Source: Clostridiales bacterium (GTDB taxonomy: Bacteria > Bacillota > Clostridia > Lachnospirales > Lachnospiraceae). Taken from it: a stretch of DNA of 42,681 nt. Shown piece after piece: positions 14,921 to 38,702 of the stretch. Under the pieces are notes generated by a model, which saw only the letters and a list, made by a program, of their open reading frames with translations, had not been told where the DNA came from and searched no databases. Positions within the stretch are counted from its first letter, which is position 1. Every line of letters starts with the position of its first letter. A program made the position numbers and the translations under genes. Where the stretch lies: assembly GCA_012837605.1 (NCBI GenBank), contig DUQV01000037.1, forward strand, positions 1 to 42,681, in the 5' to 3' direction.

Positions 14921-15273
14921 TTAGAAAGTTAAACCTGAAAATCAAGCTTTTAGAGGTCAGTTCATTATTTATCATGTCCCAAAATATGAATTATAGACCA
15001 AAACATTAAATCGCTCTTATTGTAATATATAAGGCGGGATACAAATAATCCCACACAAATTATTGCAAAAGAACCTTATAAATTTTCAAGGATTGGCATC
15101 AGCGGTGTCAAAATGCAGCCTTAGAAGAACATGAGCTCCGATTTGTGTGTCGAAAGCGGACTTTTTGTCCGATTTAGACATACAAATTGGAGTTCATGTT
15201 CTTGTACGGGTGTGTGTGACACCGCTGATACCAATTCCTGAAGATTTTATATAATGAATTTATTGAAAATGGT
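14921..15273. other. Convergent intergenic region with one structured element
   Basis: No gene is seen. The first half (14921-15077) is plain AT-rich DNA with one small hairpin (GGGAT and ATCCC near 15035-15052). The second half is filled by the long hairpin element described at 15078-15250. Confidence 0.7.
15078..15250 (-). repeat. Long structured 3'-UTR hairpin element, copy 1
   Basis: A 173-base near-perfect stem-loop, 23 bases behind the scpB stop on the minus strand. The outer stem (15078-15110 with 15217-15250) includes 13 unbroken pairs (15098-15110 with 15217-15229), then continues with two mismatches and one bulge. The inner stem (15125-15151 with 15177-15203) has 27 pairs, three of them G-U. 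At the tip is CGGAC-TTTTT-GTCCG (15157-15171). Between the stems lies a 4x4 internal loop, TTAG (15121-15124) against GTAC (15204-15207). The core shares long identical blocks with 38528-38702. It may serve as terminator, transcript stabiliser or non-coding RNA; I cannot name a known family. Confidence 0.75.
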
Positions 15274-15846
15274 TTATATATCCAGAGTGAGTTGTTCGGC
15301 TTCTTCCTCTGCTTCCAGTTTGAAGTCTTCCAGTTTTTCGGGATTTATGGCGGGAAGAGAATCTAAGGACTGAAGTCCGAAGCTACGTAAGAATTCTTCT
15401 GTTGTACCGAATAATATCGGTCGTCCCGGTGCATCCATCCTGCCTAATTCGCAGATAAGATTATACTCTAATAATTTATTAATGGGGTGATCTGATTTGA
15501 CACCACGTATTTCTTCAATCTGAAGCCTTGTAATAGGCTGCTTATAAGCTACTATAGATAAGGTTTCAAGCAATACATCCGTAAGTACATGCTTTTTCGG
15601 AATATGTGTTATCTTAATTATGCTTTCATACATAGATGCTTTTGTGCATAATTGATATGCTCCGTCAAGTTCAATAATATGTATTCCTCTGCTCTCATCA
15701 TCATATTTGTCCATCATATTCCGGATGATTTTCCTAGTTGTATCTTCATCATGGTCTATGGCTAAAGCCAGTCTGTCCAGCTCAACTGCCTCTCCCATAG
15801 TAAACAGAATGGCTTCTATTCGTGCTTCAACTAATTTTATATCCAC
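15274..15846 (-). CDS. scpB: Segregation and condensation protein B
   Basis: 190 residues, typical ScpB length. The N-terminus (KLVEARIEAILFTMGEAVELDRLA) begins the first winged-helix domain; LETLSIVAYKQPITRLQIEEIRGV is the strongly conserved second winged-helix segment. The C-terminus is acidic. ScpB dimerises and binds ScpA to complete the SMC condensin-like complex on the chromosome. The start codon is GTG; it shares one base with the scpA stop (TAGTG), so the two genes are translationally coupled. It ends the metallophosphoesterase-scpA-scpB unit and is followed by the structured hairpin element. Confidence 0.95.
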   Translation of the reverse strand: MDIKLVEARIEAILFTMGEAVELDRLALAIDHDEDTTRKIIRNMMDKYDDESRGIHIIELDGAYQLCTKASMYESIIKITHIPKKHVLTDVLLETLSIVAYKQPITRLQIEEIRGVKSDHPINKLLEYNLICELGRMDAPGRPILFGTTEEFLRSFGLQSLDSLPAINPEKLEDFKLEAEEEAEQLTLDI

Positions 15847-16622
15847 TAAAATCCTGCCTCCTCCATGGTTATTATGTCTGAAGCCAGATAAGTAATCCGG
15901 ATATCATCAAACATATGCTCCTGTTCTATTCTTATTCTCCCAAGACGTATAAGCTCCAGTATCCCAAGAAATGTCACGATTATCTCCATCTTTGTGGATT
16001 GCTGTTCCAACAGATTTCTAAAATAGAATATTTTATTCTTAATGCCGTATTCCTGTATCTGAATGAATATATCCGACAGGTTGATTTCTTCCTGCTCAAT
16101 TTTTCCGAATTTACTGCGGATAGGATCTATCTTGTCCGATTGTTTTTTTACAATTGAAGAAAAAATTTCATGAAGCTTTGATAAGGTCAGGTCACCGATT
16201 AATTCATTTACATCTATTTCTTCCTTATAGTCTGCTATTTCCTTCGGTATTGTAGGTGGTTTGAATAAAATTCTGGATGCATTCTCCTGCTTGTCCCTCA
16301 GCTTCTCGGAAACATATTTAAACATCTTATATTCCAATAGCTTGTCCACAAGCTCCTGTCTTGGATCTGCATCCTGCTCATCCTCTGTCTCAACAGCAGG
16401 CAGCAGCATACGGGATTTTATATTAATCAGTGTAGCAGCCATAACAAGAAATTCACTCATTATCTCAAGATTTTTTTCTTCCATCTGCTTTATGTAATCC
16501 AAGTACTGATCCGTAATTTCCACTATCGGAATATCATATATATTTATTTTATTTTTATCAATCAAATGAAGCAATAGGTCAAGAGGACCTTCAAATGCTT
16601 CAAGTTTAACACGTATACTCAT
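15846..16622 (-). CDS. scpA: Segregation and condensation protein A
   Basis: 258 residues. The kleisin N-terminus (VKLEAFEGPLDLLLHLIDKNKINIYDIPI) is highly diagnostic, with the IKSRMLLP segment after it. The C-terminal winged-helix part ends VTFLGILELIRLGRIRIEQE. ScpA bridges the SMC heads in chromosome condensation and segregation. AAAGGGG precedes the ATG. The upstream metallophosphoesterase gene ends 40 bases before it, so co-transcription is likely. Confidence 0.96.
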   Translation of the reverse strand: MSIRVKLEAFEGPLDLLLHLIDKNKINIYDIPIVEITDQYLDYIKQMEEKNLEIMSEFLVMAATLINIKSRMLLPAVETEDEQDADPRQELVDKLLEYKMFKYVSEKLRDKQENASRILFKPPTIPKEIADYKEEIDVNELIGDLTLSKLHEIFSSIVKKQSDKIDPIRSKFGKIEQEEINLSDIFIQIQEYGIKNKIFYFRNLLEQQSTKMEIIVTFLGILELIRLGRIRIEQEHMFDDIRITYLASDIITMEEAGF

Positions 16623-16662
16623 AATACCCCTTTCATCAGGCAGAAGATATAAACATTCAAAC

Positions 16663-17574
16663 TTATTTATTCAACAATACCACCTGTACCAATTCAGGCG
16701 GATTAAGAAATCTTGGCATAAAAGAATGACTTCCCAAACCTCTTGATATCACCATACAGCAGTTATTTTCAGCATGTTGTCCGGCATCATATTTGGGAAA
16801 AAGCTTAATCTGCGGTGATATGACACCGCCCAGAAACGGCAGGCGGATAAGCCCGCCATGCATGTGACCGGATATAACCAAATCCGCTCCCCAAGCTACA
16901 TACTCCTTAAAATATAACGGGTTATGTGCAATCAGTATATGATAGCCTTCCCTGCTCCTGCTTCCAATAAGGCTGCAGATTTCATCCTTATCAGGCTTCT
17001 GCAGGTTTTTTCTGTCAAAAAAATCACTATTTACGGACAGACCGGTGATTGTAAGCTTGCTGTCCCTATAATGCAATTCTATACCGCTGTTGTCCAAAAG
17101 GTGAACACCGAGCTTTTTAAGCTCTTTTTTGTATGCGTTCCATTCCTCATAAAGATGTACGCAATTTTTATTTCTATTCTCACTGCTTTCTGCGTCATTT
17201 ATAATGTTCTTCAGCTCTTCAAAGTACTGCTCATGATTCCCAAATGCATAATAAACAGGATAAAATTCAGAAATTTTCTCAATAAAATCAAATGCTTTAC
17301 CGGGATAACATCGTTTTTTCTTATTAATCATATCCCCCGCTATTATAACAAACTCCGGCTTTTGTTCCAATATTTTTTTAATAAGTCTTTTGTTGTTTTT
17401 CCCGAAGCTTGTGTTATGAAGATCGGACACTACAACAAATGATAAACCGTTAATATCCCGACCGATAAGCTCGGAATGTACAGTGTATTTTGATATGACA
17501 AGAATTTTCTGTTCAAAATAAGACCATAAAACAAATATTATAATCAAGCTTAGTAATACCCAAATATATGTCAT
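16663..17574 (-). CDS. Membrane-anchored metallophosphoesterase (YkuE-like)
   Basis: About 303 residues from the ATG at 17574, which has AAAGGAG in front; an in-frame start 24 codons upstream is rejected because it overlaps the promoter. Residues 3-20 form a transmembrane helix. The calcineurin-like metal motifs are complete: DLH (51-53), GDM, GNHE and GHMHGG. Relatives such as YkuE hydrolyse phosphate esters, in some cases lipid A or nucleotide derivatives, at the outer membrane face; the substrate here is unknown. It leads the scpA-scpB unit and has a strong promoter (17625-17653). Confidence 0.88.
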   Translation of the reverse strand: MTYIWVLLSLIIIFVLWSYFEQKILVISKYTVHSELIGRDINGLSFVVVSDLHNTSFGKNNKRLIKKILEQKPEFVIIAGDMINKKKRCYPGKAFDFIEKISEFYPVYYAFGNHEQYFEELKNIINDAESSENRNKNCVHLYEEWNAYKKELKKLGVHLLDNSGIELHYRDSKLTITGLSVNSDFFDRKNLQKPDKDEICSLIGSRSREGYHILIAHNPLYFKEYVAWGADLVISGHMHGGLIRLPFLGGVISPQIKLFPKYDAGQHAENNCCMVISRGLGSHSFMPRFLNPPELVQVVLLNK

Positions 17575-17624
17575 GCTGTCTCCTTTCAGGTTTATGACAT
17601 ACCTGCTTAAATACCATCCATTAT

Positions 17625-17653
17625 AATATAACTTTATGTATAACAAGTGTCAA
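17625..17653 (-). promoter_or_regulatory. Promoter of the metallophosphoesterase-scpAB unit
   Basis: On the minus strand, a consensus TTGACA (17648-17653), a 17-base spacer and TATATT (17625-17630). It lies directly behind the hairpin at 17668-17690, so one unit ends where the next begins. Confidence 0.65.
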
Positions 17654-17667
17654 CAAAGATATTTAAA

Positions 17668-17690
17668 GCCTCAACTCATAGTGTTGAGGC
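17668..17690 (-). terminator. Terminator behind the second carboxypeptidase
   Basis: Arms GCCTCAAC and GTTGAGGC (8 pairs, loop of 7) are followed on the minus strand by TTTAAATATCTTT. It is 211 bases from the carboxypeptidase stop at 17901. Two further small hairpins, CCAAC/GTTGG (17768-17784) and GCTTTAGA/TCTAAAGC (17801-17817), lie in between. Confidence 0.5.
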
Positions 17691-17900
17691 CGTTCTTACG
17701 TATCATTCTCTGTCTTTGTGAGTTTTAATTTTATGAAGTTTATAATATTCCATCTCTTCCAAATCTTCCAACCTTAGATGTTGGGGTTTTCTCCATTTCT
17801 GCTTTAGAATCTAAAGCATTTCCTTAGAATTGTCATTATGTGAATAACGATCCGATGTAAGATACAACATATTACAATATTAATTTTAGCTTATACATAT

Positions 17901-19127
17901 TTATTTATAAGTCAAGAAGAATTTTCTTATTGATTTGATGAAATTATCTTTGTATCCGGCTTTTTCAATATTATCTTTTGCCAGAATATCCACGCTTCCT
18001 ATCTTTTCATTATTATAATAATATACAATATCTCCGATTTTATCCTCAGTGGTTAAAGGTGCAGTAACCTTATCATATAGTACAATTTCTTTTCTGATAT
18101 TATCGGCAGACATCCCCTTAGAGCAAAGATAAGAGAATTCTCCTTTGATTTTGCCGTACACATAGTCGGATATACCTTTTGTAACCCTGACAGGCTCAAG
18201 TGTGATATCCTTATGGTCATCTACATATACCGAGTAATTTGCAAAACCGTAATTTAAAAGTTTGGCAGCCTCCATAAATCTGGTTTTAGTATCAGGTGCA
18301 GCCATAATGACCGCAATCAGATCCATATTGTTTCGTCTGGCTGTTGCAGATAAGCAGTATTTTGCTATGCTGGTCGAGCCTGTTTTTAATCCTGTAATAC
18401 CTTTATAGGACTTAATAAGCTTATTTGTGTTGGTCAGTCCGAACTCTGTTCTTCCTTTCTTGGTTGTATGTACGAATGTATCCATCCAAACCGTGCAATA
18501 ATTGCTCACCTGTGGAAATCTTGTGATCAGTTCTCTTGACATCAATGCTATATCATATGCTGTTGTATAATGATTATCTGCATCCAATCCGGTACAGTTT
18601 ACGAAATTCGTATTATTCATACCCAGTTCTTTTGCTCTTTCATTCATTCTGGCTACGAATTCTTCATGTGAACCTGCGATATGCTCCGCCATGGCTACAG
18701 ATGCATCATTTGCACTGGCAATACTTATACACTTAATCATTGTGTCGACATTTTGAACTTCATAAGGCTCCAGATATACCTGTGAACCACCCATAGAAGC
18801 GGCATGTTCCGTTACGCTCACATCATCCATAAGATTAATTTTCCCTTCTTCTAAAGCCTCAAAGATCAATAATAATGTCATAATCTTTGTAACGCTCGCC
18901 GGTCTTAATCTCTCATCCTTATTTTTTTCAAATATTATCGTTCCTGTTGATCCTTCTATCAGTACCGCTGAAGGTGTAACCAGCTCCATCTTCGCATCTG
19001 CCAATGCGGTAACAGGGATAACATCATTTATCCCGGGTCTTGTTGTATTAATTTGTGCACTTAATAAAGAGTTTGGTGCAGATAAAATTATGGTTAATAA
19101 TAAAAGAAAGATGGCCGTTTTCTTCAT
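17901..19127 (-). CDS. dacF: D-alanyl-D-alanine carboxypeptidase (DacF type, copy 2)
   Basis: 408 residues with a signal peptide (MKKTAIFLLLLTIILSAPN). S11 motifs: SVTK (Ser78-Lys81), SAN (138-140) and KTG (248-250). A C-terminal PBP5-C domain follows from about residue 300. It removes the terminal D-Ala from muropeptides; DacF-type enzymes act in forespore cortex synthesis. The neighbourhood (pdp, xerD, spoIIM, nudF further on) resembles that of B. subtilis dacF, which supports the name. Instead of GGAGG, the leader is GCGGGGC five bases before the ATG, as in the upstream gene. It is 93 bases behind the Ig-like protein gene. Confidence 0.88.
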   Translation of the reverse strand: MKKTAIFLLLLTIILSAPNSLLSAQINTTRPGINDVIPVTALADAKMELVTPSAVLIEGSTGTIIFEKNKDERLRPASVTKIMTLLLIFEALEEGKINLMDDVSVTEHAASMGGSQVYLEPYEVQNVDTMIKCISIASANDASVAMAEHIAGSHEEFVARMNERAKELGMNNTNFVNCTGLDADNHYTTAYDIALMSRELITRFPQVSNYCTVWMDTFVHTTKKGRTEFGLTNTNKLIKSYKGITGLKTGSTSIAKYCLSATARRNNMDLIAVIMAAPDTKTRFMEAAKLLNYGFANYSVYVDDHKDITLEPVRVTKGISDYVYGKIKGEFSYLCSKGMSADNIRKEIVLYDKVTAPLTTEDKIGDIVYYYNNEKIGSVDILAKDNIEKAGYKDNFIKSIRKFFLTYK

Positions 19128-19220
19128 ATATTGCCCCGCAAAAATACTATTATTAATATTTTAATCCATGCTGTACGGTTTTAGACCAATCCTTATATAA
19201 ATTTGTCTGCAGGATTCGTA

Positions 19221-19790
19221 TTATCTTACAGTTATTACGCATTTTAAATGTTTTCCCTTTACATTAGCTGTTATTGTTGTTTTTCCGGGACGTTTTGCCT
19301 TTACCTTACCGAATATGTTTACCGTAGCAACTGATGAATTACTGCTTGTATATCTTACAAAGCATGCAGGACCCTTTACTCTTAAACGAAATGTATCTCC
19401 AAGCCTTAAGTTTAGTCGTTTTCTGTTTAAATCAATAACCTTTACCCGGCATTTTAATTTTCTTTTTCCAACCTTTGCAATAATGACAGCCTTTCCTGTA
19501 CGATAAGCATATACTCTTCCGTTAAAATTCACTCCTGCCACACGAAAGTTGGTTGAATAAAAGGACACCCTTTTATTAATTCCATATACAAATAATCGAA
19601 ACTCCTCTCCCTTGATAAGATATATCTCCTGTCTGTTTAGATGCAGACTAAACGGGAGAATTATACCCTTTCGGTAGAACAAACCGGAGTTTCGATATAA
19701 AGAAAACATGACTATCAATATAATTACTGATATAATTATAACTTTATAAATTTTACGCAAAATGTATGATCTTTTAATATTTCTGCTCAT
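19221..19790 (-). CDS. Membrane-anchored protein with two bacterial Ig-like (BIG2-type) domains
   Basis: 189 residues, unusually basic (many Arg and Lys). One transmembrane helix lies at about 16-32. Two tandem Ig-like repeats follow: about 50-118, and about 120-189 with the BIG2-type FVRYTSSNSSVATVNIFGKV and KRPGKTTITANVKGKHLKC. The first repeat has the parallel elements SFYSTNFRVAGVNFNGRVYA and RTGKAVIIAKV. Such domains mediate adhesion or wall contact; the role here is unknown. It lies upstream of the carboxypeptidase on the same strand and may be co-transcribed. Its leader is GCGGGGC three bases before the ATG. Confidence 0.8.
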   Translation of the reverse strand: MSRNIKRSYILRKIYKVIIISVIILIVMFSLYRNSGLFYRKGIILPFSLHLNRQEIYLIKGEEFRLFVYGINKRVSFYSTNFRVAGVNFNGRVYAYRTGKAVIIAKVGKRKLKCRVKVIDLNRKRLNLRLGDTFRLRVKGPACFVRYTSSNSSVATVNIFGKVKAKRPGKTTITANVKGKHLKCVITVR

Positions 19791-19863
19791 TACGCCCCGC
19801 CGCTTTATATAATTATAATATATATGAATTTCTCATTATACTTTATGAAGCAGCTTATTATTC

Positions 19864-19883
19864 AAGTACACCCCGGTGCACTT
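19864..19883. promoter_or_regulatory. Small hairpin or palindrome between pdp and the Ig-like gene
   Basis: Arms AAGTACAC and GTGCACTT with a four-base loop pair over 8 positions if one G-U is allowed. On the minus strand it is 137 bases behind pdp and 73 before the Ig-like gene. TTGAAT followed by TATAAT with an over-long 19-base spacer lies just downstream, so it could be a transcript end or an operator. Confidence 0.3.
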
Positions 19884-19895
19884 ATATACAGATTT

Positions 19896-19982
19896 ATATC
19901 ATACAAATTATTCAAATCATAAAAGTAATATCATACAAATCTTATAAATCATTCAAATCAAACATAGTAATATCATACAAAT
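19896..19982. repeat. Short imperfect tandem repeats downstream of pdp
   Basis: The 13-mer ATATCATACAAAT occurs three times (19896-19908, 19928-19940, 19970-19982) and ATTCAAATCA twice (19910-19919, 19951-19960), alternating within about 90 bases. No coding potential is visible. Confidence 0.6.
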
Positions 19983-20020
19983 AATAAAGCAATACAATAC
20001 TGATAAGATATCTCAATATA

Positions 20021-21349
20021 TTATACTATTTTGATTACACCGTCTTTTGTAACGACACTATAGATATATGGTGGTCTTGCGGCTTTTTCCTTATTGATAA
20101 TAAAAGCATTAAGAAGCCTCTTTTTTGCTTCCCTTCTCTTGTTATCATCATTAGCATACAGGGTGGCAAGAGTCTCGCCCTTTGACACCTTATCTCCTAA
20201 TTTCTTGTGTATGAAAATTCCCACGCTTAAATCAATTTTACTGTCCTTGGTTACACGTCCGCCGCCTAACAGCAAAGAAGCCATGCCCACTTCATCAGTC
20301 CTTATTTCACTTATATAGCCATCCGAAGGGGATTTTAAATCATATTTAATTGATGCGAGCTTAAGCAGACCGGGATTATATACGAATTCGCTGTCTCCGC
20401 CCTGAGCATTGACAAACTGTGCCATCTTATCTAAAGCAGATTTATTCCTAATCGTTTCTAAGAGCAAATCCTTACCTTCCTTTGCAGACTTAACTCTTCC
20501 TGCTCCTAAAAGCATATAAGAAGTCAAAGCAATGCTTACTTCAAGAAGGTCTTCAGGACCCTGCCCATTTAATGTTTCAATGGCTTCCTTCACCTCAAGA
20601 GCATTACCGACAGCTCTTCCAAGAGGTTGGTTCATATCCGTAATAACTGCATAGGTAGGCTTATTAGCCAGAGTTCCTATTTGAACCATTTCGTTAGCAA
20701 GTGCAAGTGAATCCTCATAACTTTTCATAAATGCACCGCTTCCGGTTTTAACATCAAGTACAATAACATCCGCTCCGGAGGCAAGCTTCTTGCTCATGAT
20801 ACTTGAGGCTATAAGCGATATATTATCGACAGTTGCCGTAACATCTCTGAGTGCATATATTTTTTTGTCTGCCGGAGCAAGATTATATGTCTGACCAACG
20901 ATAGCGAGCTTAATCTTATTAACATTCTCAATGAATTGCTCGGTTGATAAACTCGTTGAAAAGCCGGGGAAGCTTTCAAGCTTATCTATAGTGCCGCCGG
21001 TATGCCCAAGACCTCTTCCCGACATCTTTGCAACGGGCAGTCCAAGAGCGGCAACCATAGGGCCAAGAACCAGAGATGTCTTATCTCCCACACCTCCGGT
21101 ACTGTGTTTATCCACCTTTACTCCTTCAATCTCAGAAAGATCCAAAAGATCTCCGCTGTTTGCCATGGCAATCGTAAGGTTCGCTGTTTCTTCATGAGTC
21201 ATATGATTAAGACATACAGCCATTAAAAATGCCGACATCTGATAATCAGGTATATCTCCCTTTGTGTAGCCTTCAATAATAAACTCAATTTCTTCCTTAC
21301 TAAGCTCACCCTTATTCTTCTTTTTATTAATCAGTTCATACATATTCAT
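20021..21349 (-). CDS. pdp: Pyrimidine-nucleoside phosphorylase
   Basis: 442 residues, normal length. The thymidine/pyrimidine-nucleoside phosphorylase signature is visible as MSGRGLGHTGGTIDKLES, and the phosphate-binding loop as KHSTGGVGDKTSLVL. The C-terminal domain ends with AARPPYIYSVVTKDG. It splits uridine, thymidine and deoxyuridine to base and (deoxy)ribose-1-phosphate in nucleoside salvage. GGAGTGAT precedes the ATG. It is divergent from the DAHP synthase gene. In B. subtilis the equivalent site between xerD and dacF holds drm and pupG, also salvage genes. Confidence 0.95.
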   Translation of the reverse strand: MNMYELINKKKNKGELSKEEIEFIIEGYTKGDIPDYQMSAFLMAVCLNHMTHEETANLTIAMANSGDLLDLSEIEGVKVDKHSTGGVGDKTSLVLGPMVAALGLPVAKMSGRGLGHTGGTIDKLESFPGFSTSLSTEQFIENVNKIKLAIVGQTYNLAPADKKIYALRDVTATVDNISLIASSIMSKKLASGADVIVLDVKTGSGAFMKSYEDSLALANEMVQIGTLANKPTYAVITDMNQPLGRAVGNALEVKEAIETLNGQGPEDLLEVSIALTSYMLLGAGRVKSAKEGKDLLLETIRNKSALDKMAQFVNAQGGDSEFVYNPGLLKLASIKYDLKSPSDGYISEIRTDEVGMASLLLGGGRVTKDSKIDLSVGIFIHKKLGDKVSKGETLATLYANDDNKRREAKKRLLNAFIINKEKAARPPYIYSVVTKDGVIKIV

Positions 21350-21528
21350 TTTTCATCACTCCAAAACATATTAATTTACCACACCATAATCATATCATTT
21401 TACAAAAATACTTGCCATTAAAATATATATTTAATATTAGTCTGTCTGTTATTATTCCAAATAATTTGTAATCAATTTTTCCATAAAATAATATTACCGA
21501 TTGAAATGAAAATATTAGTAAATTATCA

Positions 21529-21557
21529 TTGACTAAAATAGAAAAAAATAATAAAAT
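21529..21557 (+). promoter_or_regulatory. Promoter of the DAHP synthase gene
   Basis: TTGACT (21529-21534), a 17-base spacer and TAAAAT (21552-21557), 29 bases before the ATG. The leader is too short for a T-box or attenuator. Confidence 0.65.
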
Positions 21558-21586
21558 GAATAAAATCTTGAAGGGAGAAAATATAA

Positions 21587-22615
21587 ATGAGTTTCGAATT
21601 CATAAGAGAAGTAATATCACCATCTGAATTATTGAAAGCCTATCCCTTGCCCCAAAAGGATGTTATAAGAAAAAGAGAAAGAGACAAGGAAATAAAAGAT
21701 ATCATTATGGGCAGTTCTGATAAATTTCTTGTTGTCATCGGTCCATGCTCTGCAGACCATGAGGATGCGGTATGTGATTATATATCAAGACTTGCTAGAG
21801 TACAAGACATAGTAAAGGACAGATTGGTTCTTGTGCCCAGAGTATATACTAACAAGCCAAGGACTACGGGGGAAGGATACAAAGGTATTGTTCACCAGCC
21901 AAATCCCGAAAAAGAACCGGATTTGCAGGAAGGATTAATTGCAATGAGAAAGATGCACCTTCGTGCCATTGCAGAGTCAGGACTTACTGCTGCAGATGAA
22001 ATGCTTTACCCGGAAAACTGGCCTTATGTTGAAGATGTTCTTTCTTATGTTGCTGTGGGAGCACGCTCTGTTGAGAACCAACAGCACAGACTGACCATCA
22101 GCGGTATGGATATTCCTGCAGGTATGAAGAATCCAACCAGCGGAGACTTCTCTGTTATGCTGAATTCTGTTGTGGCTGCTCAAAGAAGTCATACCTTCCT
22201 CTACCGGAAATGGGAAGTAAAGACCTCAGGTAATCCCTTAGCTCACACTATATTAAGAGGTGCAGTGAATAAACATGGTCAATCCATACCGAATTATCAT
22301 TATGAAGACCTGTATAGACTGCTGCATATGTATGAAGAAAGGGAATTACAGTATCCTGCAGCCATTATAGATTCAAATCATGCTAATTCAAATAAAACAT
22401 ATTGGGAGCAGCCGCGAATAATTAAAGAGGTTCTATACAGCAGAAAGATCAGTCCGGATATAGCCAAACTCGTTAAGGGCGTAATGATAGAAAGCTATAT
22501 TGAAAGCGGAAGGCAGGAAGTATCAGGACATGTATATGGTAAATCAATAACGGATTCTTGCCTTGGCTGGGAAGAATCCGAAAGGTTGATATATTACATT
22601 GCCGACCATGTGTAA
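21587..22615 (+). CDS. aroF: 3-deoxy-7-phosphoheptulonate synthase (AroF/G type)
   Basis: 342 residues of the class I-alpha (E. coli AroF/G/H-like) family. Visible motifs: VVIGPCSADH, VPRVYTNKPRTTGEGYKG, GARSVENQQHR, DIPAGMKNPTSGD and IIDSNHANSNK. These contain the metal and phosphoenolpyruvate ligands of the barrel. It condenses PEP with erythrose-4-phosphate, the first step of aromatic amino acid synthesis. It is alone on the plus strand between pdp and the xerD-like gene, with its own promoter; no other shikimate gene is near. AAGGGAG precedes the ATG. Confidence 0.95.
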   Translation: MSFEFIREVISPSELLKAYPLPQKDVIRKRERDKEIKDIIMGSSDKFLVVIGPCSADHEDAVCDYISRLARVQDIVKDRLVLVPRVYTNKPRTTGEGYKGIVHQPNPEKEPDLQEGLIAMRKMHLRAIAESGLTAADEMLYPENWPYVEDVLSYVAVGARSVENQQHRLTISGMDIPAGMKNPTSGDFSVMLNSVVAAQRSHTFLYRKWEVKTSGNPLAHTILRGAVNKHGQSIPNYHYEDLYRLLHMYEERELQYPAAIIDSNHANSNKTYWEQPRIIKEVLYSRKISPDIAKLVKGVMIESYIESGRQEVSGHVYGKSITDSCLGWEESERLIYYIADHV

Positions 22616-22747
22616 AATATCCTTAATTTCAGAATAATTAATATGTATAAATATTAGGGTTATATAATTAATGCTTGGGTCACATTAACATCCCTGAAAT
22701 CTGCATTATAGACCTAAAATTTAAAACAACTCTAACTTCAGTGATGG

Positions 22748-22771
22748 GGTGGGTTTCTGATGAAGCCCACC
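22748..22771. terminator. Hairpin between convergent genes
   Basis: Arms GGTGGGTTTC (22748-22757) and GAAGCCCACC (22762-22771) pair over 10 bases with one G-T and a TGAT loop. It is 132 bases behind the DAHP synthase stop and 56 behind the xerD-like stop, so it may serve both, though T-runs are lacking. Confidence 0.5.
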
Positions 22772-22827
22772 TCAACTACTTGTACATAGAGCCGTATATT
22801 CTAAGCTTGGTACCGGTTTTTATGATA

Positions 22828-23703: not shown

Positions 23704-23708
23704 CCCAA

Positions 23709-23860
23709 ACCTCCTATATAAACTATAAAAAAACAATAACATACAACGGAGGTTTTTACCTCCTATATAAACTATAAAAAACAATAACATACAACGGAGG
23801 TTTTTACCTCCTATATAAACTATAAAAAACAATAACATACAACGGAGGTTTTTACCTCCT
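23709..23860. repeat. 48-bp tandem repeat, three copies
   Basis: Units 23709-23757 (49 bases, one extra A), 23758-23805 and 23806-23853 (48 bases each), plus a partial ACCTCCT at 23854-23860. Apart from the extra A, the units are practically identical, with differences only at the xerD edge. Every junction contains GGAGGT-tttt-ACCTCC, a perfect 6-base hairpin. On the minus strand this gives an AGGAGGT Shine-Dalgarno-like motif in each unit. The xerD ribosome binding site is the last, diverged one. Confidence 0.92.
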
Positions 23861-23863
23861 GAA

Positions 23864-24490
23864 TTAACTTAAAAAATTAATAGCTAAAATTATTAATCCC
23901 AAGATTTTTTTCAGTAAAAACGCACCAACGTATGCTTCCAAAAAGCTGCCGATTAATAATAGAACAGCCAGGAAAAAGCATAAAATCAAATATGATTTCA
24001 ACTGTCTGTGTATTGTTCCCATATAATCTCTTGTATCATAATATATCGACTTACTTAGATTATATCCTCTGTGTATACATACGATTATTATAGGAAGATA
24101 TATGATGCCATGGGGAAACTGATAAACAAGAATTAGCAAAATACCTTTAAAGCCATATTGGATCGCTACCACCGATATAAAAAAACCGGTTGTAAATCCA
24201 AAAGCTATTATTTTAAATATTATATATGGAATACCCAATATTGTAACTGACAGCAAACAGAATGCAGCAAATTCTCTGAAGTTTTTACCTAATATATATA
24301 AGAATAAGCTTTTATAATCTATATTCTCTCTTACTATGTCATTGAAAATAATATTATGGCTGTCCACCAGCTTGTCATAATAGAAGGAACGGAACATATT
24401 GGCTGAAATTATGCCAAGAATCAGTCCCACACCCATAAGAAGAATTGATTTCTGAATAATACTCATACGCTGCAGCTTTGCTTTTAGCAT
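23864..24490 (-). CDS. spoIIM: Stage II sporulation protein M
   Basis: About 208 residues, polytopic. A cytoplasmic basic N-terminus and first helix (SILLMGVGLILGIISANMF) precede the SpoIIM/DUF95 domain with helices near 80-105, 108-130 and 180-205. A central motif with FREFAAFCLL and FGFTTGFFIS, then YQFPHGIIYLP, is typical of the family. SpoIIM is part of the SpoIIDMP complex that remodels peptidoglycan during engulfment. An in-frame TTG at 24496 is an alternative start; I prefer the ATG at 24490, though the leader (GGGATGAG) is a poor site in both cases. It lies between nudF and the xerD-like gene. Confidence 0.92.
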   Translation of the reverse strand: MLKAKLQRMSIIQKSILLMGVGLILGIISANMFRSFYYDKLVDSHNIIFNDIVRENIDYKSLFLYILGKNFREFAAFCLLSVTILGIPYIIFKIIAFGFTTGFFISVVAIQYGFKGILLILVYQFPHGIIYLPIIIVCIHRGYNLSKSIYYDTRDYMGTIHRQLKSYLILCFFLAVLLLIGSFLEAYVGAFLLKKILGLIILAINFLS

Positions 24491-29445: not shown

Positions 29446-29476
29446 AAGTCATGTTTTTATTGATCTATCCTATATT

Positions 29477-30919: not shown

Positions 30920-30972
30920 AATTACCTCCAGATTTCTATGATAATTTATTTATGTTACTATATGTTGGCCAC

Positions 30973-31935: not shown

Positions 31936-32036
31936 ATTCCGACTCCTAAATTCCCTTCTTATACAACCTATGTAGAGACATATTAAGTTATGCTAAAAGC
32001 AGCATTGGATAATAAACCAACAGTTATTATATGATT

Positions 32037-32924
32037 TTATTCATCCAGATTATTAAATATCTGGGCCAATGGTGAATCCTTAGATAATATTAATGTCTTA
32101 TCAGAACCTGAGAGCGATTCTCTGGCTGCATCCAATGCTCTTATAAATGAATAAAATTCACTTCTTGAAGTATCCGAGTACGCATTTGATAATATCCTCA
32201 TGTATTCGGCTTCACCTTCAGCGATAATCTTTGCTGCATCTGTTTGGGCATTTGATATGCTAATTTCAATTTCCTTATCGGTGGTATTTCTGATCATCTG
32301 TGCTTCAGATTCACCTTCAGCGGAATAAGCACCTGCCATCTGGGCACGTTCTGAAATCATACGTTCAAATACTGCGATTTTGTTATCACTGGGCAAATCA
32401 AGGTGCTTATTTTCTACTGTAATAAGATGAATACCGTATTGCTCCATGGTATCACCGATATCCTCCATAAATGCCATATTCAGTTTGCCGTCTCTTCCGC
32501 TGATAACCTCATTTTGAGTGTTACTGCTTATAACATTCTTCATGGCATTGTAAACGGTGGTGTTTATTCTGCTTTCAGCAAGTGTTATGGAAGAATTCAA
32601 GGTCTGTGCGAATTTGATCGGGTCGGATATTCTCCATAATACATAGCTGTCAGCAACCATTGTTTTCTTATCCACTGTTATAACATCGGACTGAGGCATA
32701 TCATAAAATTGTATTTCTTTTGGAAGCTTATCAACCGTCTCTACAAATGGAGTCTTAAAAGATAACCCTGCCGTATCAACTACCCTTTCAATCTTATCGA
32801 AGCGTTTAATGATTGTGTATTCATTTTCTCTTGTAACAACTAACGTGGTTGATAGTATTACTACAGCTGCGACCAATATAATTAATAATAATACTCCTGT
32901 AATGCTTTTTGTCCTCTTAGCCAT
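32037..32924 (-). CDS. hflC: HflC-type membrane protein (SPFH/band 7)
   Basis: 295 residues. An N-terminal helix (GVLLLIILVAAVVILSTTLVV) is followed by the SPFH domain with ENEYTIIKRFDKIERV. The long Ala/Glu-rich C-terminal helix includes AYSAEGESEAQMIRNTTDKE and ILSNAYSDTSRSEFYSFIRAL, typical of HflC. With HflK it forms a membrane complex that modulates the FtsH protease. Its start overlaps the hflK stop by one base (TGATG), so translation is coupled. Confidence 0.93.
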   Translation of the reverse strand: MAKRTKSITGVLLLIILVAAVVILSTTLVVTRENEYTIIKRFDKIERVVDTAGLSFKTPFVETVDKLPKEIQFYDMPQSDVITVDKKTMVADSYVLWRISDPIKFAQTLNSSITLAESRINTTVYNAMKNVISSNTQNEVISGRDGKLNMAFMEDIGDTMEQYGIHLITVENKHLDLPSDNKIAVFERMISERAQMAGAYSAEGESEAQMIRNTTDKEIEISISNAQTDAAKIIAEGEAEYMRILSNAYSDTSRSEFYSFIRALDAARESLSGSDKTLILSKDSPLAQIFNNLDE

Positions 32925-33892
32925 CAGTTACTGCCTCCTTCCACTAAAGGTTCCAGCGGCAGGAACTTATTAACCTCTGATTCTCCGCTGTCTATAATAA
33001 CTTTAACTCCCGGAAGAATATCCTCCATTGCCTCATAATACATTCTTTTCTTAGTGATTAAAGGATATTTTATATATTCTTCATACATCTCATTAAATCT
33101 TGCAACCTCAGCATGTGCTTCATTTATTCTCTTTGTTTTAGTAGATTCTGCCTGCTGAAGTATTTTATCAACTTCTGCCAATGCCTGCGGAAGCTTTTCA
33201 TTTCTGTATTTTTTAGCATTATTTATTGCTGTGTCCTTGCCTTGCTTGGCGGTTTCAACAGATTTAAAGGCTTCCATTACTTCCTCTGTAGGAGGTTCAG
33301 AATCCTGAATTGTAATATTTACAAGCATAAGTCCGATATCATGATTCATCAGATCCTCCAATATTTTTTCCTTAATTTTTGATTGGATTTCATATTTTCC
33401 TGATGTAATCACGCTGTCAACATCATAACTTCCAACAGTGCTCCTGATATTGCTTTGTGCAATATTCTTCAATATAATTACTGGATCGGAGGATGCATAA
33501 AGATATTTTATAGGATCGGAGACCTTGTATTCTACGAAGAAGTCCACATTAACAAAATTAAAATCTTTTGTAATCATGACTGCTTCAGATTCAATTGTCC
33601 TGTTAGTTGCTTCCTCATATCCTATCGGAAAGCCTTTTATTGTAGTATCTACCCTATGTATCTTCTGAATAACAGGTATTTTCAGATGAAGTCCTGCTTC
33701 TGTAACAGCCTTTGCTTTTCCAAAGGTTGTTATAACAACCTGCTCCTGTTCCTTAATCGTATAAAATGAACCAAAGCCTATAATAGCCAGAACGACTAAA
33801 ACAATAATAAACAGAGCAAATTTTCTGAATTTTTTAAAAAAGTCTTTCACCTCATTTCCTGATGGAAAATCATATACAACTCTTCCTGACAT
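32924..33892 (-). CDS. hflK: HflK-type membrane protein (SPFH/band 7)
   Basis: 322 residues. A cytoplasmic N-terminus of about 23 residues, one helix (FALFIIVLVVLAIIGFGSFY), then the SPFH domain (EQEQVVITTFGKAKAV) and a C-terminal helical region with AYAEV-like coiled-coil sequence (QQAESTKTKRINEAHAEVAR). The N-terminus lacks the long Gly-rich stretch of proteobacterial HflK, as in other Clostridia homologues. It partners with the downstream hflC. A GAAGGTAG site precedes the ATG. The region between it and proA contains degenerate repeats. Confidence 0.92.
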   Translation of the reverse strand: MSGRVVYDFPSGNEVKDFFKKFRKFALFIIVLVVLAIIGFGSFYTIKEQEQVVITTFGKAKAVTEAGLHLKIPVIQKIHRVDTTIKGFPIGYEEATNRTIESEAVMITKDFNFVNVDFFVEYKVSDPIKYLYASSDPVIILKNIAQSNIRSTVGSYDVDSVITSGKYEIQSKIKEKILEDLMNHDIGLMLVNITIQDSEPPTEEVMEAFKSVETAKQGKDTAINNAKKYRNEKLPQALAEVDKILQQAESTKTKRINEAHAEVARFNEMYEEYIKYPLITKKRMYYEAMEDILPGVKVIIDSGESEVNKFLPLEPLVEGGSN

Positions 33893-33943
33893 TAGCCTAC
33901 CTTCTTTCTATATCATTTTTGTTATTTAACGTATCAGTTATTT

Positions 33944-34041
33944 AAAGCTACTGCTTTGATTGACCGTTAATATGTTAATATTCAGATTACTGCTGTATCT
34001 GTTGACTTATTAATTAATCAAAGCTACTGCCTTATCTGACC
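33944..34041. repeat. Degenerate repeats at the proA 3' end
   Basis: Three related segments of about 22 bases lie at 34019-34041 (the last proA codons and stop), 33983-34006 and 33944-33965. The outer two share AAAGCTACTGC and TGACC with a few changes; the middle copy is more diverged. Spacing is roughly 36-41 bases. Confidence 0.5.
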
Positions 34042-35271
34042 GCTTCCGAATATTATATATTTTGTTGTTGTCAGTGCTTTTAAACCCATAGGACCTCTGG
34101 CATGCAGCTTCTGTGTGCTTATCCCGATTTCAGCACCAAAACCGAATTCATTTCCATCCGTAAATCTGGTGGATGCATTTACATATACCGCAGCAGCATC
34201 AATCTCGTTGTGGAATTTCATTGCGTTGCTGTAATCATTGGTTATAATGGCGTCTGAATGCTTGGTATTATAATGGTTGATATGCTTAATTGCCTCATCA
34301 ATATCTGCCACAACCTTTAAGGATATGATTCTATCCAAATACTCGGTGTAATAATCCTCTTCCGTTGCAGGTACACATCCGGGACTGATGGCACACCCCT
34401 TCTCATCCGCTCTTATCTCAATTCCTTTAGAATGCAGCCTTTCATATAGAAGCGGTATGAACTTTCTGCTTATCTTTTCATGTATAACCAGAGATTCGCA
34501 TGTATTACATACTCCCAGTCTCTGCGTCTTGGCATTGTCGATTATATTAAGAGCCATGTTAAAATCGGCATGTTCATCCACATATATATGGCAATTTCCT
34601 GTTCCGGTCTCAATAACAGGGACGCTGCTGTTTTCCTTAACCAAGCGAATAAGCCCGGCTCCGCCTCTTGGTATCAGTACATCTATGTATTTATCAAGCC
34701 TCATCATCTGATTTACTACATCTCTTGCCGTATCCTCAATCAATATCACGGCATCTTCAGATATTCCGGTTTCCTTAAGGCCCTGGTGCAATGCTTCTAC
34801 TATTGCAATATTTGATCTGATTGCATCACTGCCGCCACGAAGTATAACTGCATTTCCTGTTTTAAAGCATAAACCAAAGGCATCAGCGGTTACATTAGGA
34901 CGTGATTCATAAATCATACCAATCACACCCAAGGGTACTCTTTTTTCGCCGACAACTAATCCGTTCGGTCGGACCTGCATAGAAATAACCTCACCTACCG
35001 GGTCAGGAAGTGCAGCAACCTCCAGCAAGCCATCAGCCATTGATTTAATTCTTTCGGGAGATAACATAAGCCTGTCGATTAAGGATTCCTTAACCTTGTT
35101 CTCCCGTGAGCGTTTTACATCCTCTTTATTTGCTTCCAATATTTTGTCCTGCCATTTAATTAATGACTCGGCACATGATTTTAGTACATCATTTTTCTCA
35201 TTCTGAAGCATCAGTGCAAGCTTCACCGAAGCTTCTCTTGCCCGTTTACCGATACTTTCCAAATACTCCAT
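34024..35271 (-). CDS. proA: Glutamate-5-semialdehyde dehydrogenase (gamma-glutamyl phosphate reductase)
   Basis: About 415 residues. Aldehyde dehydrogenase superfamily: [30 protein letters not shown], and the catalytic Cys255 in [14 protein letters not shown]. The C-terminal [16 protein letters not shown] is a ProA hallmark. It reduces gamma-glutamyl phosphate, made by ProB, with NADPH. The ATG at 35271 sits behind AAAGGAGGC; an upstream in-frame start is rejected. It follows the 5-formyl-THF cyclo-ligase by 36 bases, in the proB-DUF896-cyclo-ligase-proA operon. Confidence 0.96.
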
Positions 35272-35307
35272 ATTAGCCTCCTTTCCTGTCCCCTGCAAAA
35301 TATATTC

Positions 35308-35883
35308 TCATTTCTTACATATAATCAATTCATCGTTAGTGATGATATAATCCGCCGGAATATCATATATATCAACTGTTATCCTATCAGTTATCTGAAA
35401 ATCATATGCCAAAGCAATCTTAACCCATTCATCCTGAGGATATTTTCCAAGATAGCGGTCATAATATCCTGCACCGTATCCAATCCTGTTACCCACCTTG
35501 TCGAATGCAAGACCGGGAAGCAGCATAACCTTCTTAAAACCCGGCAGCGGTTTCGTATATTTAAGATGTATTCTGTCATCAGGCTCCAATATACCAAAAT
35601 CGCTTCTTACCAAGCCCTCAAAACCGTTAATCCTATAAAAACTCATATTCTTATTCTCAACTCTGGGAACATACACATGCTTATTCATACTAAGAGCTTT
35701 TCTGATAATCTCATGCGTATCAACTTCATTTCCAAAAGATATATAGGTAAACAGCATATCACAATTTAAAAACTCCTGTAACCCATATAATCTTTTACGA
35801 ACCTTCATGCTATACTCATGCACAAGATCCTCCGTCAGTTGATCTCTTTTCTCTTTATATTTTCTACGAATTCTGCTCTTCAT
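35308..35883 (-). CDS. 5-formyltetrahydrofolate cyclo-ligase
   Basis: About 191 residues. The basic N-terminus RIRRKYKEKRDQL and the C-terminal nucleotide-site motif GNRIGYGAGYYDRYL are typical of the family, as is MLLPGLAFD. It converts 5-formyl-THF (folinate) to methenyl-THF with ATP. The ATG at 35883 fits AAAGGTG at 8-base spacing; two other in-frame starts lie within nine bases upstream. It is placed between DUF896 and proA. Its ribosome binding site lies a few bases from the REP-like palindrome at 35898-35920. Confidence 0.93.
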   Translation of the reverse strand: MKSRIRRKYKEKRDQLTEDLVHEYSMKVRKRLYGLQEFLNCDMLFTYISFGNEVDTHEIIRKALSMNKHVYVPRVENKNMSFYRINGFEGLVRSDFGILEPDDRIHLKYTKPLPGFKKVMLLPGLAFDKVGNRIGYGAGYYDRYLGKYPQDEWVKIALAYDFQITDRITVDIYDIPADYIITNDELIICKK

Positions 35884-35897
35884 CTGCATCACCTTTG

Positions 35898-35920
35898 TTA
35901 ATGGTGACAGGCACCATTAA
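35898..35920. repeat. REP-like palindrome 1 in the proline operon
   Basis: Nine-base arms TTAATGGTG and CACCATTAA around ACAGG. Same core as 35981-36003. Confidence 0.85.
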
Positions 35921-35980
35921 GAATATATTGCATAAATGTTAATAAAATATTACATAATCGGCAGTATGTGTAATACATTT

Positions 35981-36003
35981 GTAATGGTGTCAGGCACCAT
36001 TAC
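35981..36003. repeat. REP-like palindrome 2, overlapping the DUF896 stop
   Basis: Nine-base arms GTAATGGTG and CACCATTAC around TCAGG, in the same orientation as copy 1 with 60 bases between. The outermost pair differs from copy 1 in a compensated way (G-C against T-A). The DUF896 stop codon lies inside it at 35990-35992. Confidence 0.85.
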
Positions 36004-36175
36004 AATCGTCGGGATCAACAAATTTTATACGCTCCAATGTTCCCCTGAGATTATTGCGAATTGCTTGGATATATTCTTTTCGAAGATGCTCCTGTTCGGC
36101 TTTTTCCTCGGGGGTTAATCCTACGGTTTGTGATTTCCTGTATAGCTCATTAATTCTATCAATATTCAGACTCAT
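35990..36175 (-). CDS. DUF896 small protein (YnzC-like)
   Basis: 61 residues: IDRINELYRKSQTVGLTPEE, KAEQEHLRKEYIQAIRNNLR and LERIKFVDPDD are the DUF896 family pattern. B. subtilis YnzC is a small helical protein of the same size range; its role is not established to my knowledge. The last residues CNGA and the stop are encoded by the REP-like palindrome, so the native C-terminus may have been replaced. AGGAG precedes the ATG. proB ends 12 bases upstream, so it is co-transcribed. Confidence 0.88.
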   Translation of the reverse strand: MSLNIDRINELYRKSQTVGLTPEEKAEQEHLRKEYIQAIRNNLRGTLERIKFVDPDDCNGA

Positions 36176-36187
36176 ATAAATCTCCTA

Positions 36188-37051
36188 TTAGCTAAACTGC
36201 TTTGTTTTTGTTCTTATGTAATCCATAATATTGAAATCCTTTGCTTTATGGGCAATGAACAGAGTTCCTATATCTTTTCCATCAATAAGACGATTAATAT
36301 TACGTACATCATCTCCGTTGACTATAGCCATGTCAGCACCTGAAGCGTTGGCGATTTTTGCGGCAGAAAGCTTTGTAGCCATACCACCGGTACCGAGGCT
36401 GCAGCCTGTTGATGATTTAGCCATCTTAAGAAGCTCATCATTTATTTCATCTACATAGGATATTAGCTTTGCATCTTTGTTCCTATGAGGATCATCGGTA
36501 TAAAAGCCATCTATATCAGATAATAATATGAGCAAATCTCCTCCCACTAAAGCCGTAACAATTGCGGAAAGTGTGTCATTATCTCCAAAATCACCGATAT
36601 CTATCTCATCTGTAGATACTGTATCATTTTCATTTACAATTGGGATTACTCCCAGTTTGAATAATTCATTGAATGTGTTTTGTGCATTTTTTCTGCTGAT
36701 ATCATTTAGCATGGTGTCTTTTGTCATGAGGATTTGAGCTGCCATCTGGTTATATTCAGAGAATAATTTCTGATATACCATCATAAGTCTTGCCTGGCCG
36801 ACCGCTGCACAAGCTTGTTTTATAGATATTTCGGTTGGTTTTTCAACAAATCCCAATGCATTTCTTCCTACTGCAATGGCTCCGGATGATACCAGTATAA
36901 CATCTCTTCCATGATTTCGAAGATTAGTCAGAATTCTTACCAGTCTTTCCATCTTATCAAGGTTAAGCAGACCTGTTTCGTGATGTGTTAAAGATGCAGA
37001 CCCGATTTTTATTACTATCCTTTTCTTATTTTTTAAAGTTTTTCTTTTCAC
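36188..37051 (-). CDS. proB: Glutamate 5-kinase
   Basis: 287 residues. Amino acid kinase fold: RIVIKIGSASL, VILVSSGAIAVGRNALGF, NENDTVSTDEI, FGDNDTLSAIVTALVGGDLLILLSDIDG and GTGGMATKLSAAKIA. It lacks the C-terminal PUA domain of longer ProB proteins, as in many Clostridia. It phosphorylates glutamate, the first step of proline synthesis. The start is GTG at 37051 behind GGAGGAG. The flavoprotein at 37100 lies upstream by 48 bases and may share its transcript. Confidence 0.95.
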   Translation of the reverse strand: MKRKTLKNKKRIVIKIGSASLTHHETGLLNLDKMERLVRILTNLRNHGRDVILVSSGAIAVGRNALGFVEKPTEISIKQACAAVGQARLMMVYQKLFSEYNQMAAQILMTKDTMLNDISRKNAQNTFNELFKLGVIPIVNENDTVSTDEIDIGDFGDNDTLSAIVTALVGGDLLILLSDIDGFYTDDPHRNKDAKLISYVDEINDELLKMAKSSTGCSLGTGGMATKLSAAKIANASGADMAIVNGDDVRNINRLIDGKDIGTLFIAHKAKDFNIMDYIRTKTKQFS

Positions 37052-37099
37052 TTATACTCCTCCAAATGTAATTATATTTTTTGTCTTTTGTTATTTCTG

Positions 37100-38344
37100 T
37101 TAATTCTTCAGTACTTCGGTACCTGCATGACTGCCTGCAATATACCCTGTACTCCATGCCCACTGCAGATTGTATCCTCCGCATGTACCGTCCACATCTA
37201 AAAGCTCTCCAATAAAGTATAAACCTTTCTTTATTCTCGATTCTAATGTATTCGGATCAATATCTTCGGTTGAGACTCCACCTGACGTAGCTTGGGCAAA
37301 ATCAAATGTATTTGTATCCTTTATTCTGACAACTAATCCTTTTATTAATCTCGCAAGCTTAATTACATCTGATTTGTTCAGCATATGACACGGTATATCA
37401 GGATTAAACCCTGCCTCTTTTATGATAATATAATTAAGCTTCTGATTAAAGATTCCTACCATCATCTGTTCCAAGGTCTTATCAGGATTGCTGATACATC
37501 TGTTAATAAACATCTCCGTAAGCTCTTTTCGGGAGTAATGAGCAAATAAATCCAAGCTTATAAATACTGAACTTCCTTCATCAAGAGCTCTTGAGGCAAA
37601 GCGGCTCATCTGCATAATGGGTATGCCTGATATACCATAATCGGTAAATATTATCTCGCCTTCTTCTTCTGCCCGATTCTCGTTATCAATGTATAATGAT
37701 GCTTTAGCCCATGTACGGACTCCGGATACGACCTTGCAAAACTTGTCGTGAGATTTTAAAGATACCAGAGCCGGTAATGGCTTTATTATTCTATGACCAT
37801 ATGCCTTAGCAAGTAAATAACCGCTTCCGTCAGAACCCAGCTTTGGACTTGCACAGCCGCCGGTCGCCAGAATTAATTTCTTGCCATAGTAAACCGAATT
37901 TGTTTTATCAGGCTTCATTGTATTAACCGTATAGTCCGGTTCTGATATTTTAGTAACTCTTTCTTTATATATAATATCTACTTTTAATCTTTCACATTCC
38001 ATCAGCAAAACCCGGACTATGCTTGCTGCCTGTTCAGAGTTGGGATATATATAACCGTCCCTGTTCTTTGGTACGATACCCAGCCTTTCAAAAAACTGTA
38101 TTGTTCTTTTATTATCAAAATTAGACAGCACCTTCATAGCAAATGCACTGTCATCTGATCGGTAGCAATCCGGCGTCTGATGCATATTGGTGAAATTACA
38201 TTTGCCATTACCGGTTGCCAGTATTTTTTTCCCTGCTTTTTCTTTTTGTTCTATAATAAGCACCGAATTACCTTTTTCAGCAGCAGCTATTGCAGCAACC
38301 AATCCGGATGCACCTGCACCAACGACTATAATATCATAATCCAT
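37100..38344 (-). CDS. BaiN/HI0933-family FAD-dependent oxidoreductase (copy 2)
   Basis: 414 residues. Same architecture as the copy at 509-1774: IIVVGAGASGLVAAIAAAEK, EQKEKAGKKILATGNGKCNFTN, GDG(S)-type LGSDGSGYLLAKAYGH and a C-terminal YFIGELLDVDGTCGGYNLQ, AWSTGYIAG. Sequence identity with copy 1 is clearly partial, so the two are old paralogues and not a recent duplication. Substrate unknown. GAGGGC precedes the ATG. A good promoter lies at 38434-38462. It lies upstream of proB. Confidence 0.9.
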   Translation of the reverse strand: MDYDIIVVGAGASGLVAAIAAAEKGNSVLIIEQKEKAGKKILATGNGKCNFTNMHQTPDCYRSDDSAFAMKVLSNFDNKRTIQFFERLGIVPKNRDGYIYPNSEQAASIVRVLLMECERLKVDIIYKERVTKISEPDYTVNTMKPDKTNSVYYGKKLILATGGCASPKLGSDGSGYLLAKAYGHRIIKPLPALVSLKSHDKFCKVVSGVRTWAKASLYIDNENRAEEEGEIIFTDYGISGIPIMQMSRFASRALDEGSSVFISLDLFAHYSRKELTEMFINRCISNPDKTLEQMMVGIFNQKLNYIIIKEAGFNPDIPCHMLNKSDVIKLARLIKGLVVRIKDTNTFDFAQATSGGVSTEDIDPNTLESRIKKGLYFIGELLDVDGTCGGYNLQWAWSTGYIAGSHAGTEVLKN

Positions 38345-38433
38345 CTTACTGCCCTCACAAGCAATATGCGTAAAATTCCCTCATATGCTTCTATTGTGTG
38401 AATTCAATATTCCTCAAACTTAACATTTGTTCC

Positions 38434-38462
38434 ATTATATTTTATCACATATATTAATTCAA
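38434..38462 (-). promoter_or_regulatory. Promoter of the second BaiN-type flavoprotein gene
   Basis: On the minus strand, TTGAAT (38457-38462), a 17-base spacer and a perfect TATAAT (38434-38439), 90 bases before the start codon. Confidence 0.65.
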
Positions 38463-38527
38463 GACTTTCTTACAATATTTAATATAATGCTTTTCAAATT
38501 TTAATGAAAACTTAAGACGTAAAAAAA

Positions 38528-38702
38528 GAAGTTATAAAATTGTGGAGCAAGGGTATTGCCATAATGCACCCTTAGAAGAACATGTACCCAAGTTTGTATT
38601 ATCCTAAGCGGACATTTTATGTCCGATTAGGATTTACAAACGGGTACATGTTCTTGTACGGGTGTGTGAGGCAATATCTATGCTCCGTAATTTTATAACT
38701 TC
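38528..38702 (-). repeat. Long structured 3'-UTR hairpin element, copy 2
   Basis: A 175-base stem-loop, 8 bases behind the BofC-like stop on the minus strand. Outer stem: 38528-38549 with 38681-38702, 22 pairs in a row (two G-U), then TATTGCC (38554-38560) with its complement. Inner stem: CACCC with GGGTG, the 4x4 loop TTAG/GTAC (38572-38575, 38656-38659), 14 perfect pairs (38576-38589 with 38642-38655), ATCCTAA with TTAGGAT, and a tip CGGACAT/ATGTCCG. On the minus strand the outer stem is followed at once by seven T (38521-38527), so the whole looks like an intrinsic terminator with a large insert. The conserved blocks are shared with 15078-15250. Confidence 0.78.

Follow-up and report, generated by a model that had tools for sequence, protein, structure and literature searches.

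Two long intergenic hairpins, W1 and W2, in a 42,681-nt stretch of DNA from a Clostridiales bacterium of the Lachnospiraceae (contig DUQV01000037.1 of assembly GCA_012837605.1; the whole stretch is called the window below) probably belong to a family of miniature inverted-repeat transposable elements (MITEs) of the IS1182 type, which target transcription terminators and probably then act as terminators themselves; we assign this reading a probability of roughly two in three (0.66). An IS1182-type transposase would move the hairpins into terminator stem-loops, whereby the target stem is replaced or split, and the inserted hairpin would then serve as a terminator, often between two convergent genes. 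The terminator role may help to keep the base of the stem paired during sequence drift, and the conserved mismatched core might be recognised in its folded form by the transposition machinery or another factor. The mobility of the hairpin family as such is well supported. The two copies in the window and their parts are the following:

15078..15250, + strand: hairpin copy W1, between a sortase-like gene and scpB, whose ends converge on it; 106.4 bits with covariance model R1, motif on the + strand
15108..15221, + strand: structured core of W1, matched by R1 with E 5.3e-28 (W1 itself is among the 22 sequences of R1)
15080..15110, + strand: left outer arm of W1 (repeat finder), 87% complementary to its partner 15217-15247
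15217..15247, + strand: right outer arm of W1 (repeat finder)
38526..38704, + strand: hairpin copy W2, with the 3' end of a BofC-C-like gene on one side and the 5' side of an aminoacetone-oxidase-family gene on the other; 115.1 bits with R1
38559..38673, + strand: structured core of W2, matched by R1 with E 1.4e-30 (W2 itself is also among the 22 sequences)
38526..38560, + strand: left outer arm of W2 (repeat finder), 86% complementary to its partner 38670-38704
38670..38704, + strand: right outer arm of W2 (repeat finder)

Both copies fold far better than shuffled sequences (-106.8 kcal/mol, z -16.8 for W1; -110.2 kcal/mol, z -16.7 for W2; 0 of 200 shuffles equalled either value), and the repeat finder recovered the arms of both unprompted. 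Common to the two are CCTTAGAAGAACATG (15119-15133 in W1, 38570-38584 in W2), AAGCGGAC (15154-15161 and 38606-38613), GTCCGATT (15167-15174 and 38621-38628) and an identical block of 22 bases (15195-15216 and 38647-38668). The initial annotation, which had proposed the pair as a candidate undescribed structured element, had placed all of these blocks correctly. It had also described the TTAG/GTAC site as an invariant, unpaired 4x4 internal loop, and this needs correction: in the predicted fold the middle TA/TA is paired, with a T.C and a G.G mismatch flanking these two pairs. The second of these mismatches is sometimes replaced by a pair elsewhere in the family, and at loci L141 and L152 the conserved mismatches are gone and the site is perfectly paired. 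The annotation knew of no named family with these blocks. An Rfam search of the window gave 0 matches at the gathering score, while a permissive Rfam search of the elements returned matches that were all below gathering and mostly to microRNA families, the best with 57.1 bits against 90.

Further copies, first found by blast in the own genome, were scanned for with R1, which was built from 22 copies; they turned up both in the own genome and in the genus. R1 marks 24 distinct places in the own genome at E ≤ 0.01, 19 of them below 1e-6 (41 rows with the opposite strand), and matches 28 of the 34 genomes of the genus at E ≤ 0.001. Genome G006 has at least 101 rows and G013 at least 65, opposite-strand rows counted in, and 400 kb of G006 hold 12 clear places. 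Across an order-wide sample of 246 genomes only the own genome matched at 1e-6; this search used stricter filters, giving 15 rows for the own genome, and was therefore less sensitive. The hairpin family is confined to one genus as far as tested. Searches of the W2 hairpin against phages and plasmids gave no match, nor did window positions 1-20000 against plasmids by megablast. An 18-base pattern at two loci of the genome contigs (L016 and L017) was discarded as chance, being without a covariance-model match. Statistics on the wider family are based on 83 distinct copies, which are best-strand rows from 92 sources; excluded were opposite-strand rows, the duplicate loci L181, L269, L173 and L196, the identical core L175 and the weak or partial matches L163, L198-L201 and L215. 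This set is not random, since the score decided the choice and, in part of G006, the intactness of the ends.

The sister species G001 carries 15 copies of ~190 nt (pairwise identity 82-94%, mean 89%), which have the ends GAGGCTGTCGCA...TGCGACAGCCTC in common and lie in unrelated flanks, and also contains internally shortened versions bearing the same ends. No target duplication was found at these 15 copies: the longest direct repeats at their ends average 1.5 nt, compared with 1.9 nt across copies. With one mismatch allowed, G006 contains 27 and 29 matches to the 15-base end pattern GGGCTGTTGCATAAT and 0 to its reversed control. When each copy was compared with shuffles, the 12-base end GGGGCTGTYGCA reached p ≤ 0.05 in the sequence beyond the core for 23 of 26 copies from G006, 3 of 4 from G001 and 23 of 35 copies belonging to other genomes; some of the G006 copies had been chosen by their ends, and among the 12 not so chosen, 11 show it, one of them (L217) being cut by the locus end. 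The copies are short, numerous and, judged from their length, without coding capacity, and their terminal inverted repeats have sharp ends in G001 (not recognisable in W1 and W2). At loci L211 and L212 of G006 a second, near-perfect hairpin of ~45 nt and related sequence precedes each copy, and the inter-locus similarity extends over it.

The ends also lead to a candidate autonomous partner. Three insertion sequences (ISs) of G006, found through their transposase family and 99.9% identical to each other, have GGGGCTGTCGC at both ends, and the protein they encode passes the IS1182 transposase model with 324.1 bits (cut-off 270). A relative in G015 has GGGGCCGTCGCA at one end. The hairpins thus have ends of ~12 bases in common with an autonomous element, which is present in 3 of the 34 genomes, and the IS ends tested fold into hairpins as well. 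From this we infer a link of the hairpin family to IS1182, and a hairpin MITE fits the copies better than a free-standing RNA gene because they are a mobile repeat with IS1182-like terminal repeats. The earlier proposal of a structured element rather than a plain repeat therefore stands in part: the structure is conserved and the types of mismatch favour one strand (see below), but the element is a mobile interspersed repeat. It is of the very kind, a MITE, that the annotation had set against its own proposal, and paper searches gave no name for the hairpin family. The MITE end pattern did not lead to a complete IS in G006: its matches pair only at ~190 bases. Sequences related to the G006 IS occur on plasmids of Enterococcus, Staphylococcus and further Bacillota (257 records; top match 72% identical over 91%). 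One IS copy of G006 (L352) lies directly past the stop codon of a reading frame that presumably resembles an IS200-type transposase.

The placement of the copies points to gene ends. With genes called on both sides by a simple open reading frame caller, 38 of 79 copies lie between convergent, 39 between co-directional and 2 between divergent genes; the same caller divides the intergenic bases of a 400-kb part of G006 into 15% convergent, 59% co-directional and 26% divergent. The orientation relative to the genes is free (20 ++ and 19 -- among the 79). On contig C1 of G006 the + orientation looks commoner by eye, ~30 vs 13 among the matches listed. A stem-loop as the target would leave complementary flanks, and over the six positions outside GGCTGTCGCA the 15 G001 copies are complementary at 57 of 90 positions against a permuted mean of 46.0, with 4 of 5000 permutations as high.

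Orthologous gene ends were compared between species. The BofC-like gene next to W2 is present in 31 of the 34 genomes, with the core nearby only in G000 and G006 (30 loci scanned); scpB is likewise present in 31 of 34, with the core nearby only in the own genome (30 of 31 loci scanned). These scans covered 30 of 31 loci per gene, some of them truncated by contig ends. Among 14 species compared at the end of the BofC-like gene, G006 has a full copy in the orientation opposite to that in G000; the copy of G001 has lost its centre, and G022 has a palindrome of another kind. A short terminator-like hairpin was recognised by eye in at least five of the species (G007, G008, G009, G014 and G018). Other gene ends common to several species also bear copies, in the same or in opposite orientation. 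We read the copies at common gene ends as mostly the outcome of repeated insertion, and some pairs, such as L139 and L150, may go back to shared descent. An alternative, that the core flips in situ at orthologous sites, was rejected: species more closely related to G000 are without the element at the BofC-like gene, which speaks for mostly independent insertion. The palindromic element found 3' of the BofC-like gene in G022 (L296) has the ends GAGCTGTTTCATAATAATTGTATACAG, and in G006 (L304) a hairpin with a perfect 19-base stem, CGTCGATACAAAAGGCTC...GAGCCTTTTGTATCGACG, stands between the BofC-like gene and the element.

The neighbouring genes and signals at W1 and W2 are the following:

13721..14920, + strand: sortase-domain protein (class B sortase-like, under the NCBIfam curated cut-off), ending towards W1
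15274..15846, - strand: ScpB, ending towards W1
37100..38344, - strand: aminoacetone oxidase family FAD enzyme, with its start on the W2 side
38711..39412, - strand: protein with a weak match to the BofC C-terminal domain, ending towards W2
38521..38527, - strand: terminator-like stretch, seven consecutive T (A on the + strand) at the foot of the W2 hairpin that is distal to the BofC-like gene; two of these bases belong to the arm

W2 is located 6 bases past the stop codon of the BofC-like gene, and the same strand closes in the seven T; no further terminator-like site was found in 38300-38800 besides this foot. This would fit a terminator that was taken over by the element.

The pairing of the stems is conserved, as the initial annotation had supposed from compensatory changes between the two hairpins. 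Among the 22 aligned copies standard pairs make up 95.4% of cells, and both-sided change occurs at 18 of 40 pairs, in 87 cells against 26.3 in shuffles (0 of 500 reach 87; slid controls 6-17), although kinship of the copies inflates this test. The conserved mismatches are kept in most of these copies, and the outer arms pair well despite differing sequences. Moreover, the mismatches are biased to one strand: on the motif strand of the 83 copies, G-T outnumbers A-C by 137 to 37 in the core and 112 to 48 in the outer arms, and at two conserved wobble positions by 92 to 0. Counted once per cluster, position and type (56 clusters of the 83 copies), G-T still leads by 124 to 34 in the core and by 101 to 39 in the outer arms. 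No such bias is seen among the 15 G001 copies where only one base of a pair has changed (21 G-T vs 28 A-C), therefore it would arise over longer times or in spreading lineages. Paired double changes among these 15 copies number 22, compared with 7.8 in permuted columns (maximum of 2000, 15); 18 of the 22 fall within the terminal repeats, outside which there are 0 such cells in the 39 middle pairs and 4 in the 28 inner pairs.

Several results weigh against a MITE of the IS1182 type that lives at terminators. The match between IS and hairpin extends over only ~12 bases, and a core search did not find the hairpin core in the IS copies L351-L353 or L355. The IS1182 transposase is present in only 3 of the 34 genomes (fragments only in G045) and was not found in G001, home of the 15-copy group, so that the active copy would have been lost or not assembled there, or another enzyme acts. 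The GGGGCTGTYGCA end reached p ≤ 0.05 in only 3 of 18 copies from the own genome and is not recognisable in W1 and W2, which is why these two were assigned to the family by their core. The flank complementarity is weakened by two of the six positions being the consensus end; over positions 3-8 it is weak, 47 of 90 against 39.9, with 218 of 5000 permutations as high. T and A just outside the arms are only slightly enriched in the wider set (0.40 vs 0.36 and 0.42 vs 0.38). Past W1, the scpB strand has another terminator-like site of its own at 15054-15034 (1 found, 0.6 expected), thus W1 need not be the terminator for scpB. Finally, the G-T bias persists where the flanking genes are on the other strand (-- context: 29 vs 10 and 28 vs 8), and terminator function therefore fails to explain it.

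Because the one-strand pairing bias lacks an explanation across the family, some interest is kept in the idea that one folded strand is the substrate of a mobile element. The mismatched core would then be recognised as single-stranded DNA or RNA and the strand selected during spread, with terminators swapped out and replaced in function; such an element would be transposon and terminator in one. We consider this possible, if doubtful, and the hairpins may have a strand-specific role as RNA or single-stranded DNA. The same bias, with its 92 to 0 at the wobble positions, would also fit a structured RNA that is non-coding, made from the motif strand and functional as such, with multiplication secondary; the stem covariation and the conserved mismatches would suit it as well. 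Such an RNA nevertheless seems unlikely: the orientation is free with respect to the genes and not constant from species to species at a given gene end, the bias is missing from the G001 copies, and copy number and ends are already accounted for by a mobile repeat. A scan for consensus promoters gave 2 vs 1.4 in shuffled sequence at W1, which is near that level, and 5 vs 2.8 at W2, which is not far above it. That the arms of a palindrome covary among a handful of copies is not in itself proof of a functional RNA.

Pairing kept solely by correction of the palindrome at the DNA level (template switching between the arms), with no selection on structure, would account for the perfectly corrected loci L141 and L152, the well-paired outer arms and the excess of paired double changes in the terminal repeats of G001. 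It is improbable as the sole cause, since most of the 22 aligned copies retain the conserved mismatches, the G001 copies have few paired double changes outside their terminal repeats, and correction is not expected to produce a strand bias. Strand-biased pairing, conserved mismatches and direct repeats that do not exceed the cross-copy level could alternatively reflect movement by a transposase of the single-strand type (HUH/Y1, REP-like), for which one strand has to be folded, the IS1182-like ends being coincidental. The terminal repeats do match IS1182 ends, and REP-like elements are normally shorter and have a tetranucleotide at the foot; movement of this type is quite unlikely. Ordinary long terminators inherited by descent and not mobile would explain the placement at gene 3' ends and the T-run at the foot of W2, but are very improbable: the 15 related copies of G001 in unrelated flanks contradict them, and among the 30 loci scanned per gene the core accompanies scpB in the own genome alone and the BofC-like gene in just G000 and G006.

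Among known repeats, REP/BIME and ERIC are likewise imperfect palindromes at gene 3' ends and differ from the hairpins in size and ends. No description of the hairpin family was found among the open-licence papers searched. Closest is the IS1182 family: the genus's own IS1182 elements end in GGGGCYGTCGC, as do the MITE ends, whereas the hairpins are ~190 nt long, gene-less, folded along their whole length and provided with a conserved core that is not in the IS copies tested. The respective papers describe IS1272 of this family as replacing stem-loops with no target duplications (PMC5678879), and TnSha1 as inserting into hairpins, five of seven sites being terminators by RNA-seq, with part of the target hairpin deleted and both orientations found at one terminator (PMC4923244). 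According to the same papers, many of the stem-loops into which IS1272 and TnSha1 insert are terminators, and no duplications accompany the insertion (PMC5678879, PMC4923244). By these descriptions the hairpins resemble both elements in the missing target duplication, the gene-end placement and the two orientations at one site. Bacterial MITEs, as portrayed in a review that mentions stem-loop transcripts and possible terminator roles, are similarly short, non-coding, intergenic and multi-copy, with terminal inverted repeats and hairpin transcripts to be expected (PMC10969869). The hairpins differ from bacterial MITEs in general in having no target duplication, a marked preference for gene 3' ends and covariation across subfamilies. 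The SPRITE, RUP and BOX repeats of Streptococcus pneumoniae are alike in being small and intergenic (PMC10969869; PMC3049150), and SPRITE is there termed terminator-like (PMC10969869).

The many natural copies, older and younger, of an element that apparently replaces terminators would make the stem-loop-replacing model of IS1272 testable on a natural series, and the strand-biased pairing is a lead on whether movement uses a folded single strand.

Apart from the hairpin family, three tandem units of ~48 nt, each containing the small terminator-like hairpin GGAGGTTTTTACCTCC, were seen at 23709-23882 of the window. Unrelated to the hairpins are a thiamine pyrophosphate (TPP) riboswitch above the gathering score at L139 (2515-2652) and a T-box match just under it at L141 (3244-3443). 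L142, on contig C157 of G000, contains a palindrome with arms of ~165 bases on each side at 80% identity, which is long for a bacterial chromosome.

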